Shown piece after piece: positions 16,033-18,826 of a stretch of DNA of 35,384 nt. The translations under genes were made by a program, and so were the position numbers. Numbering within the stretch: the first letter of the stretch is position 1; each line of letters begins with the position of its first letter. The notes under the pieces were generated by a model that did no database searches, had not been told where the DNA came from, and saw only the letters and a program-made list of their open reading frames with translations. This DNA comes from an uncultured Agathobacter sp. (GTDB lineage: Bacteria > Bacillota > Clostridia > Lachnospirales > Lachnospiraceae): the NCBI GenBank assembly GCA_945910395.1, contig CAMDYX010000023.1, forward strand, positions 1 through 35,384, read 5' to 3'.

Positions 16033-17292
16033 TTAGTCAACTAAAACCGGATTTTCTTCTACGACCCATGGAAGCCCCCACTTATTTAGCGCTTCCATAT
16101 ATGGATCCGGGTCAAACTCATCTGTAGTATACACTCCCGGCTTTTTCCATTGTCCGGTCACAACCATCATTGCACCGATCATTGCCGGTACACCTGTGGT
16201 ATAGGAAATCGCCTGGGACTCCACTTCCCTGTAGCATTCCTGATGGTCACATACATTGTAGATGTAGATGCTTCTTTCTTTTCCGTCCTTAATTCCGGTA
16301 AAGATACATCCGATGTTTGTCTTTCCGACGGTTCTTGGTCCAAGGGATGCCGGATCAGGAAGAAGTGCCTTTAAAAACTGAATCGGAACAATCTGCTGAC
16401 CATTGAATTCAACGGGTGTAGTGCCCAGCATTCCCACATTTTCCAGACATTTCATATGTGTTAAGTAGCTCTGTCCAAAGGTCATGAAGAAACGAATCCT
16501 CTTAACATTTGGGATATTTCTTGCAAGAGCTTCGATTTCTTCATGGTGAAGAAGATACATATCCTTTTGTCCGACCCCTTCAAAATTGTACTCTCTCTTA
16601 ATGCTCATGGCCGGGATTTCAATCCATTTTCCATTTTCCCAGTAGGAGCCCGGTGCGGAAACCTCCCGAAGATTGATTTCCGGATTAAAGTTTGTAGCAA
16701 ATGGATAGCCATGATCACCGCCGTTACAATCCAAGATATCAATAGTATGGATTTCATCGAAGTAATGCTTTTGTGCATAAGCGGTAAATACACTTGTTAC
16801 ACCGGGATCAAATCCGGTTCCAAGAAGTGCGGTAAGTCCGGCCTTCTCATACTTTTCCTGATATGCCCACTGCCAGGAATAATCAAAATATGCCGAAAAA
16901 CCAAGCTCCTTGCAGCGCTTTTCATAGACTGCTCTCCACTCCGGGTCGTTGGTATCCTCCGCTTCGTAGTTTGCAGTATCGATATAATGTACGCCGGTTT
17001 CCAGGCAGGCATCCATGATGGTAAGGTCCTGATACGGAAGTGCCACATTCAGCAACGCATCCGGCTTGTAGGAACGAATCAGTTCCACCAGCTCTGCAAC
17101 ATTGTCCGCGTCAACCTTTGCAGTTGTAATCTTTGTTTTTGTGGTTGGCTGCAGTTTTTCCTTCAACGCATCACATTTGCTTACGGTACGGCTTGCAATC
17201 ATAATTTCATCAAATACATCACTGTTCTGGCAGCATTTGTGAATTGCTACGGATGCTACTCCACCGCATCCAATAATCATTAATCTACTCAT
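16033..17292 (-). CDS. Carboxyspermidine (carboxynorspermidine) dehydrogenase
   Basis: A 419-residue oxidoreductase of the saccharopine dehydrogenase family. Proteins of this type condense L-aspartate beta-semialdehyde with putrescine (or diaminopropane) and reduce the imine with NADPH to carboxyspermidine. The Rossmann motif MIIGCGGVASVAIHKC is at the N-terminus. The central domain contains TGFDPGVTSVFTAYAQ, typical of this subfamily. Length matches. AGGAGGG lies five bases before ATG. Its context with nspC, 22 bases downstream, decides this role over saccharopine dehydrogenase. Upstream is the 600-bp phased dyad array that separates it from speE. An aspartate-semialdehyde dehydrogenase, source of its co-substrate, is at the right edge of the window. 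Confidence 0.93.
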   Translation of the reverse strand: MSRLMIIGCGGVASVAIHKCCQNSDVFDEIMIASRTVSKCDALKEKLQPTTKTKITTAKVDADNVAELVELIRSYKPDALLNVALPYQDLTIMDACLETGVHYIDTANYEAEDTNDPEWRAVYEKRCKELGFSAYFDYSWQWAYQEKYEKAGLTALLGTGFDPGVTSVFTAYAQKHYFDEIHTIDILDCNGGDHGYPFATNFNPEINLREVSAPGSYWENGKWIEIPAMSIKREYNFEGVGQKDMYLLHHEEIEALARNIPNVKRIRFFMTFGQSYLTHMKCLENVGMLGTTPVEFNGQQIVPIQFLKALLPDPASLGPRTVGKTNIGCIFTGIKDGKERSIYIYNVCDHQECYREVESQAISYTTGVPAMIGAMMVVTGQWKKPGVYTTDEFDPDPYMEALNKWGLPWVVEENPVLVD

Positions 17293-17356: not shown

Positions 17357-17957
17357 AGTAGATATGGTCTTGGAGAGACCATCATACTTTTTTGTTCTCC
17401 CTTTTCGGATTTCAAATATGCAAATTCATTCAGGAACACATTTCCGAAATGGGAGTTTTTATTTTGGTATGTACCATTTTAGTAGCATACATACCTTTTT
17501 ACTTTTTTACCAATTCTGGTATGTACCTTCTCGTAAGGCATGCATACTATTTTTCTTTCTTATTGTTTTTGGTATGCATACTTCAAGTAGCACTACATAC
17601 AACTTTTCTTTTTCTTCTAATTTAGTATGTATATTTTCTAAAAATGTTGGAAGTCCGCAGGAAAATTACATACTTTTTTCTTTATTTTTTTCATTTGGTA
17701 TGTACGCCCACTTAAAACCTGAATACAATTTTTCGCTTTATTCTATTTTAGTATGTATGCACTCGAAAAACCTACATACCGGCTTACATATTTCCATATT
17801 TTGGTATGTATGCACTCGAAAAACCTACATACTGTTTTCATCTTTTACATAGTTTAGTAGGTATCCCAGGAAAAACATACATACCATTTTCCCTTTTCTT
17901 CTAATTTGGGATGTTCACTTCCCGAAAAAATAGAAGCTCCAGGCAAATTTACATACT
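17357..17957. repeat. Phased tandem array of ten dyads, 53-bp period
   Basis: This fills the 664-bp gap between speE and the dehydrogenase. Ten units run from RGTATGT to ACATACY, at 17357, 17466, 17518, 17571, 17624, 17697, 17750, 17803, 17856 and 17908. From the second unit the start-to-start steps are 52, 53, 53, 73, 53, 53, 53 and 52. The interval from one unit's end 7-mer to the next unit's start 7-mer is exactly 22 bases in all eight intact cases, and is T/C-rich on the plus strand. The interiors are 16-17 bases, except two of 36-37 (units 5 and 10). Units 7 and 8 have identical interiors. Units 5 and 10 and their leading 22-mers resemble each other, suggesting block duplication. The array begins at the speE stop codon. 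Copy D of the palindromic repeat interrupts it between units 1 and 2. Confidence 0.9.
17397..17455 (+). repeat. Palindromic repeat, internally deleted copy D
   Basis: CTCCC-TTTCGGA on the left pairs with CCGAAA-GGGAG on the right, around AAATATGCAAATTCATTCAGG, the right-end sequence of full copies. The middle is missing. It lies inside a 22-bp spacer of the dyad array: removing about 55 bases restores the normal spacing, so it looks like an insertion into a pre-existing array. Confidence 0.8.
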
Positions 17958-18826
17958 TATTCTGTGTGTTTTTTCCCCTCTTCTTCTTCCAGAAGATCCT
18001 CCACATACTTCGGAAGCATGAATGCGCCCCTGTGAAGATTGGTGGTATAGTACCAGGTTTTTATATTTCTCGCTTTCCAGCGGGCTGGGTCAAAATCATT
18101 GAGCGGATGGTACTTTTTCGATGCAAACCCAAACATCCAGATGCCTGCCGGGCAGGTGGGAATGCTGGCCTGATATACACGGCTGATTGGAAAGCTGCGG
18201 TATACCTTTCGATGCATTGCCCGAAAAGCCGCCTCGTCCTCATCGTAGAACGGGCTTCCGTGCTGATACACCATGATTCCGTCATCATGGAGCGCACGAT
18301 AACAGCTTCCGTAAAATTCCTTTGTAAACAGACCTTCCGTATATCCAAAGGGATCGGTGGAATCGTTGATAATCAGGTCATATTTATCAGTGCATCTTCG
18401 CAGGAAACGAAGGCCATCCATATTGGTTACGGTGACCCGGGGATCCTCAAAACCCTTTGCGGTTTCCGGGAAAAACTCCTTACTCACGGACACAAACATC
18501 TCATCCGGCTCCACCACATCGATATGCTCGATCTCCGGATATTCAATACAGGTGCGGGCAACTCCTCCATCGCCTCCACCGATAATCAGAACATCCTTGA
18601 CATGGGGATGAACTGCCATCGGGACATGAACCACCATTTCGTTATAGATAAATTCATCTGCCTCGGAAAAAATAATATCCCCATCCAAAACGATCATTTT
18701 TCCGAATTCCTTCGACTCAAATACGTCAATGCGCTGATAGTCATTTTCCTGGGAAAACAGCTGCTTATCCACACGGACGCTGGTCTTGACATTATCGGTG
18801 TCCATCTGTGAAAACCAGATATCCAT
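17957..18826 (-). CDS. speE: Spermidine synthase (aminopropyltransferase)
   Basis: A 289-residue Rossmann-fold aminopropyltransferase. Family members move an aminopropyl group from decarboxylated S-adenosylmethionine to putrescine. Visible motifs are EADEFIYNEMVVHVPM (54-69), GGGDGG (83-88), VVEPDEMFV (usual VEID, here with Pro), NDSTDPFG (from 154, with the catalytic Asp155) and CPAGIWMFGFASKK. Length matches Gram-positive SpeE. The gene starts two bases after the speA stop, and its GGAGG ribosome site lies within the last codons of speA, so the two are coupled. No S-adenosylmethionine decarboxylase (speD) is visible in the window, and the operon also carries the alternative carboxyspermidine route, so the true substrate is open. 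The stop codon touches the first repeat of the dyad array. Confidence 0.93.
   Translation of the reverse strand: MDIWFSQMDTDNVKTSVRVDKQLFSQENDYQRIDVFESKEFGKMIVLDGDIIFSEADEFIYNEMVVHVPMAVHPHVKDVLIIGGGDGGVARTCIEYPEIEHIDVVEPDEMFVSVSKEFFPETAKGFEDPRVTVTNMDGLRFLRRCTDKYDLIINDSTDPFGYTEGLFTKEFYGSCYRALHDDGIMVYQHGSPFYDEDEAAFRAMHRKVYRSFPISRVYQASIPTCPAGIWMFGFASKKYHPLNDFDPARWKARNIKTWYYTTNLHRGAFMLPKYVEDLLEEEEGKKHTE

Follow-up and report, generated by a model that had tools for sequence, protein, structure and literature searches.

What is the array of short complementary motifs that separates two polyamine genes in an uncultured Agathobacter sp., and does it serve those genes? The window, by which we mean the whole stretch of 35,384 nucleotides that was analyzed, belongs to a 3.14-Mb assembly that is 89% complete (G000), and the array lies in it between speE and the carboxynorspermidine synthase gene. 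The array is real and not a product of chance. A preliminary description had it begin at position 17357, which is about 100 bases too early; it spans 17466-17957. The features of the locus are as follows, the mismatch counts of the units coming from a scan with ACATACY-N22-RGTATGT unless noted otherwise.

16033..17292, minus strand: carboxynorspermidine synthase gene (CANSDH), flank; NF043000, E 3e-125, 419 bits, which does not reach the model cut-off of 800
17466..17957, no strand: phased array of up to nine ~36-bp units ACATACY-N22-RGTATGT, with steps of 52-53 and one of 73
17489..17524, no strand: array unit, 0 mismatches
17542..17577, no strand: array unit, 2 mismatches
17595..17630, no strand: array unit, 1 mismatch (ACATACA)
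17668..17703, no strand: array unit, 0 mismatches, 73 from the preceding unit
17721..17756, no strand: decayed array unit, 2 mismatches to the hexamer pair
17774..17809, no strand: array unit, 0 mismatches
17827..17862, no strand: array unit, 1 mismatch
17879..17914, no strand: array unit, 1 mismatch
17957..18826, minus strand: speE, spermidine synthase, flank; its stop codon is abutted by the last half-site of the array

With up to two mismatches allowed, the scan found seven units, against 0.18 expected from dinucleotide shuffles, and none of 100 shuffles reached seven. The 22-base interval, described earlier as fixed, is constant in all seven of these units and varies in sequence. The inner interval, given as 17 bases, is usually 16-17, but 36-37 in two cases. 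The start-to-start steps of the RGTATGT-type half-sites are 52, 53, 53, 73, 53, 53, 53 and 52. The count of ten units was too generous: the stretch holds six exact RGTATGT and six exact ACATACY 7-mers, the others being variants with one or two mismatches, and nine units at most can be drawn, one of them 37 bp long. A CRISPR array was rejected, as only short half-sites recur here and the 22-base interiors vary.

Next to the array, and abutting it, is the end fragment of a palindromic dispersed element of ~185 bp (17411-17457; 89% identity over 47 bases). This imperfect palindrome occurs within 150 bp of 10 of the 27 G000 arrays that were checked; copies are found at L030 (4410-4591 and 5670-5854) and L034 (3676-3845), and at L181 fragments lie on both sides of the array.

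The polyamine setting, to which the preliminary description had tied the array, appears to be incidental. The comparison covers 15 same-genus loci with speE next to the same gene: none carries the array, and 0-184 bp separate the two genes except in G012 (805 bp). No unit with one mismatch or fewer was found in 25 loci of relatives. Like arrays adjoin genes for L19, EF-P, HypF, AcrB, a sulfate permease and other unrelated proteins, and no common function was evident in the 30 array-flanking proteins scanned. The link to polyamines is thus unsupported, and regulation of the operon was rejected on the absence of the array from the 15 loci. Loss of the array in relatives had been put forward as a sign of neutral local tandem duplication; the array is indeed absent, but that origin does not follow, as the array belongs to a family scattered over many sites. 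In the closest relative found (L129, of G012), the 805-bp gap between speE and CANSDH contains a 726-bp imperfect palindrome that is 79% self-complementary, and three further same-genus loci (L140, L144 and L145) have, by eye, another open stretch in the region between speE and the same gene.

The search of the genome for further arrays, proposed in the preliminary description, was productive. The pattern ACATACN{23,25}GTATGT has 25 exact matches in G000, against none for the reversed control, and 0-3 matches in each of 35 same-genus genomes, where the controls gave 0-2. The G000 units occupy 12 intergenic sites: TACATAC arrays on contigs C1 (two), C3, C8, C10 (two), C23 (the window) and C110, and one or two units each on C2, C9, C14 and C18. 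With a stricter pattern, more than two matches were found among 295 genomes of the order only in G000 (19) and in G250 (6, of a different long palindrome). The six places in G250, of which five are near the form given, carry palindromes TACATACTATTGCAG...CTGCAATAGTATGTA, another dispersed type. A scan of assembled-genome contigs returned 12 stretches with the unit, of which six are arrays: Pseudobutyrivibrio sp. 49, Lachnospiraceae RUG170 (two stretches), Tb.RUG.8, SIG316 and a Fibrobacter MAG. The other six (L017, L019-L022 and L027) were taken as isolated or chance occurrences, L019 and L022 being counted uninspected. We consider the window array to be probably one dispersed copy, in trans, of a larger class of element.

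The TACATAC arrays of G060, G061, G063 and G064 adjoin a gene for a protein of 262-278 aa, the G060 copy being internally deleted to 180 aa. Neither Pfam nor NCBIfam has a family that matches these proteins at cut-off (for Pfam, four proteins were tested), and the search for a solved relative by sequence gave no convincing match (best E 0.24). The C-terminal region matches PDC-S68 of PADLOC (E 2.6e-27), and a second match is to HEAT_CxxC_PDDEXK (E 9.4e-07); by these matches the partner protein, of ~270 aa, appears to be PD-(D/E)XK-like. The alignment used here (A5) comprises 47 of 50 candidate rows, L075, L116 and L118 being excluded. The residues RSKSE...YE...PDF...EHxG are invariant in all 47 aligned proteins. 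So are E174, D205 and E220, the putative acidic residues of a PD-(D/E)XK core by our own motif assignment. Between the G064 protein and the Fibrobacter copies, identity is 31% over 268 aa. Two degraded forms were seen beside arrays. In G060 (L016, 2931-3473), the nuclease derivative lacks the catalytic middle, and at a second site in G064 (L056, 1459-1617) the gene is reduced to remnants.

Family matches, some of them fragments, are present in 17 of the 22 chosen genomes, with seven at six places in G000, 14 in G064 and nine in G250 (fragments included). In a phylum sample of 398 genomes (E 1e-15), full-length members were found in five genomes, all from the family of the window's organism, and seven others had the C-terminal domain only, mostly inside larger proteins. 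Synteny within the genus was seen for three or more sets of nuclease loci, so the genes are not freely mobile. An earlier reading of free mobility, in which L186 and L108 served as unlinked flanks, was withdrawn, both adjoining a comEC-like gene; the gene names in this synteny comparison were assigned by eye. On viral contigs, a search limited to close relatives of two peptide patterns gave no confirmed relative of the nuclease. Plasmids matched in the C-terminal domain only (7 records), and among phages three small unannotated fecal records matched the nuclease. One of these, MT839528.1 (434-1117), is a 4.2-kb unannotated fecal "bacteriophage" that matches over 83% of the nuclease, with 31% identity. 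The window array had no blastn match, and on these results a phage or plasmid origin was rejected.

The association between array and nuclease was measured with a detector that presupposed neither word nor step, applied to the 1-kb flanks of 62 loci; its gap range of 20-27 was fixed after gaps of 22-24 had been seen, and steps were free above 25. Four or more units of one word were detected in 46 of 123 flank regions, against 1 of 615 shuffles. At least three units are adjacent to 49 of 61 family loci, the other 12 having no array within 1 kb; duplicates (L079, L082 and L087), a weak match (L124) and low-complexity or off-lattice calls (L068_3, L108_3 and L123_5) were dropped before these locus counts. 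The flanks of an unrelated control gene had arrays in 0 of 47 cases. Full-length loci that were found later carry arrays of three or more units in eight of nine cases, the ninth being at a contig end, and the seven loci with the C-terminal domain only have no lattice array, two of them giving low-complexity or 33-bp direct-repeat calls. The array is 5' of the gene at 36 loci and 3' at 20, seven of them having both; in six of these seven the two sides share the same or nearly the same word, and L112 has two different words.

The half-site word is mostly private to a nuclease lineage, and the geometry is shared, with units mostly of 34-37 bp. Word distance correlates with protein distance among 38 proteins (Mantel r 0.28, 0/5000), a test which, like the tree, omits pseudogene, fragment and short-array loci. 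Between genomes, a pair at 81% (G000/G012) has a near-same word and a pair at 71% (G250/G060) the same word; paralogues of G061 that are 60-67% identical differ in their words. The TACATAC-linked proteins of G060, G061, G063 and G064 do not form one clade, so that TACATAC has arisen, or been retained, on more than one occasion. The sharing of TACATAC may be convergence, and the genomes were chosen by that very word. In G000, at 89% completeness, a TACATAC nuclease was not found: none of its family matches is beside a TACATAC array, and no nuclease remnants were detected beside those arrays at E below 0.05. Neither was a nuclease found adjacent to the TACATAC arrays of G062. The family genes of G000 on C51 and C1, which have no detected array, are candidate TACATAC nucleases by elimination only.

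Dispersal in trans was examined with a word other than TACATAC. The word of the array beside the nuclease on C48 of G000 was used as a prediction, and GGGTGT-N23-ACACCC gave 59 units in G000 (those in cis included) on at least 12 contigs, with one for the reversed control; 32 of 35 genus relatives had none, and three had one. Of the 39 steps, 37 are 61-62 or 82.5-83, matching the array in cis. Seven of the ten other GGGTGT arrays that were compared align to the C48 array at 67-93%, and three (L175, L179 and L183) do not align to it beyond the word. The best contig-internal copy in trans (L176, on C4) is 86% identical to the cis array over 227 bp. The array on C53 (L180), at 93%, was not used as evidence, since it and the C48 array are both at contig ends and may be one broken array; the same caution applies to other arrays at contig ends. 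An insertion event, a target duplication or defined ends were not identified. By their sequence, these arrays are dispersed in trans and match the array in cis.

The geometry common to the arrays is that of the DNA helix, the units being spaced on a lattice of ~10.5 bp. Unit centers are separated by steps near 42-44, 53, 62-64, 73-74, 84, 105-106, 114-116, 126, 135-136 and 146 bp, and tandem arrays reach 13 units. For 139 consecutive unit pairs from six genomes, a free scan returned a best period of 10.4 bp (R = 0.92). With each step value taken once per array and the steps of ~53 removed, R was 0.80 (n = 34), a value equaled by none of 5000 uniform random draws. The 41 family-gene arrays that are not at TACATAC loci gave 82 distinct steps with R = 0.70 at 10.6-10.7 bp (0/2000), and the modal steps of 46 arrays gave R = 0.79 near 10.6 bp (0/2000); these Rayleigh tests treat steps within an array and arrays within a genome as independent, which they are not. 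Steps off the lattice, such as 49 and 66, do occur. In one array (G064:C20, L101) the steps alternate between 50 and 65-66, singly off the simple lattice, and their sums of 115-116 correspond to eleven turns. The helical phasing first noticed in the window was thus borne out well outside it, in arrays of six genomes and beside the family genes.

Selection on geometry, also proposed at the outset, gains support from the distribution of differences within units. Four close copies of a Fibrobacter cassette differ least in the 12-bp half-sites (2-6%) and more in loops (8-23%) and linkers (17-22%); including a more distant fifth copy raises these figures to 7-10%, 33-39% and 40-46%, respectively. 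The sites were defined on one copy, which biases the figures slightly toward site conservation. For G061, the count covered 46 units from six arrays, all keeping the 53-bp register; departures from the consensus of the respective array were 4.7% in half-sites, 21.5% in loops and 32% in the inner interval. Five of 51 units were omitted (two each of L053 and L054, and one of L026 at step 49). Half-sites and lengths are kept and loops are free, and by these comparisons the array geometry is under selection. Across 42 family-gene arrays, the AT fraction starts from 0.89 on the dyad, falls to ~0.5 at 4-6.5 bp, returns to ~0.8 at 8-10 bp and is low within the half-site, in a profile that mixes related arrays and has no null comparison; such a profile would be expected of DNA bent around a protein. 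Of the readings in the preliminary description, that of a helically phased, multi-site protein-binding array is the best physical interpretation. As to the binder, a YtrA-type GntR regulator was considered, its gene adjoining arrays in G000 (L037) and G061 (L026), and was judged a coincidence because the G063 GntR matches are weak (best 1.5e-7) and both promoters seem, by eye, to carry another inverted repeat.

The array class, its lattice, the conservation of half-sites and lengths, the linkage in cis, the mostly private words and the trans copies that match cis arrays can all be read directly from the sequences. We think it rather probable that the class consists of a PD-(D/E)XK-like nuclease and its cognate phased array, the latter also spreading in trans. 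We infer that the arrays are bound by the nuclease, and that the enzyme cuts and thereby spreads them. Each nuclease lineage tends to have a half-site word of its own. A nuclease dimer or larger oligomer probably grips two half-sites, ~15 bp to either side of the A/T-rich dyad, and bends the DNA. Such oligomers would stack along one helix face and bind cooperatively, which on this proposal is why the units lie near whole turns apart (~4 to 13). The nuclease activity, directly or through break repair, may then copy arrays into further intergenic positions, in the way proposed for REPINs and their RAYTs. The chances appear evenly poised that this amounts to a new class of intragenomic replicator, in which nuclease filaments on one DNA face spread their own arrays and paralogues diversify to orthogonal words.

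Other explanations were weighed against this nuclease-driven spread. The arrays could be a DNA antidote or sponge, on which a toxic or defensive nuclease is held inactive, with dispersed arrays that tune or protect and that spread by ordinary duplication. The C-terminal domain in common with candidate defense proteins, the preference of arrays for the 5' side and the many paralogues per genome speak for it; yet no partner gene recurs, no neighbor cluster being present in more than three loci, and with roughly a dozen trans arrays private to the species for each word there seem, in our judgement, to be more than a sponge would require, so we regard this possibility as unlikely. Chromosome-organizing sites, where an architectural protein loops or anchors DNA on the arrays and the nuclease-like protein is a structural binder, would account for the helix-face alignment, the AT modulation around the dyad and the intergenic, dispersed positions. 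Against it, residues of catalytic type are invariant in all 47 aligned proteins, and the words turn over between species, as sites of host architecture would not be expected to do; we regard this account as distinctly improbable. An RNA element, either the repeat RNA of a type III toxin-antitoxin system or an operon mRNA switch, is very improbable. Its stems can pair in RNA, and ToxIN has a similar layout, with a repeat array upstream of the gene for a small nuclease. Against it are the 10.4-10.7-bp lattice of steps, the gene-less arrays in trans, the free loop sequence, the lack of an Rfam match in the window and of a Pfam family at cut-off for the four proteins tested. The chained RNA switch of the preliminary description fares no better, as the steps track the B-DNA repeat and, by eye, gene direction does not decide which strand of the 22-base interval is rich in pyrimidines (plus in the window, with genes on minus, and plus in L033, with genes on plus).

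Movement of REP, BIME or REPIN elements by a RAYT (Y1) transposase is scarcely credible here, for all that inverted doublets, fixed spacing, intergenic dispersal, clustering beside the enzyme gene and several types per genome are features described in PMC3116915. PF01797 has no match in the array-bearing genomes G000 (89% complete) and G064, some matches being present in 14 of 20 searched genomes; the half-sites are not themselves palindromes, and the steps follow the double-stranded helix. Least credible is neutral tandem duplication. The 53-bp steps within one array could be inherited by copying, but differing steps share one lattice, half-sites are spared and arrays are tied to one protein family, and from these patterns, together with the genome-wide GGGTGT units, we judge it already refuted.

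The nuclease-array system has its closest parallel in RAYT/REPIN. There, according to PMC3116915, distinct enzyme copies each have their own intergenic family of inverted doublets, clustered beside the gene and dispersed, and the enzyme is largely vertical at the species level; the repeat populations persist in genomes, as described in PMC8049555. A GTAG or CGTC tag next to the palindrome is a further RAYT/REPIN feature (PMC3733652). The arrays reported here are likewise inverted doublets of fixed spacing, intergenic, clustered beside an enzyme gene and present in trans. The enzyme, in contrast, is PD-(D/E)XK-like and not Y1, and the units follow double-stranded helical phase, with free loops and in tandem up to 13, unlike the single-stranded DNA hairpins of REPINs. 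Our best reading is that the system would work like RAYT/REPIN but is not a member. MITEs and autonomous transposons also have gene-bearing and gene-less copies, and L056 (compared with L058) has nuclease-gene remnants beside its array; here, no target duplication or defined ends were identified, and some nuclease loci are syntenic within the genus. PDC-S68 and other PD-(D/E)XK candidate defense proteins of PADLOC share the C-terminal nuclease domain, whereas the proteins with the C-terminal domain only lack the N-terminal ~150 aa, and the seven such proteins have no comparable array. ToxIN differs from the DNA-helix lattice, inverted units and trans arrays seen here, and the proteins have no Pfam family at cut-off, their weak matches including no ToxN-like toxin.

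The literature that was searched, with bioRxiv preprints and most subscription papers outside its scope, contained nothing on such arrays or on this nuclease family. The phased arrays seem to be undescribed, and the nuclease genes tied to many of them suggest a new sort of enzyme-plus-repeat system. If the proposal is true, it would be a second, unrelated system of this kind in bacteria, an independently evolved counterpart of RAYT/REPIN that acts on double-stranded DNA. The dozens of nuclease/word pairs form a natural set in which DNA specificity changes and site geometry stays fixed, and with them one could test directly how specificity is encoded, how filaments assemble cooperatively and how selfish repeats persist.
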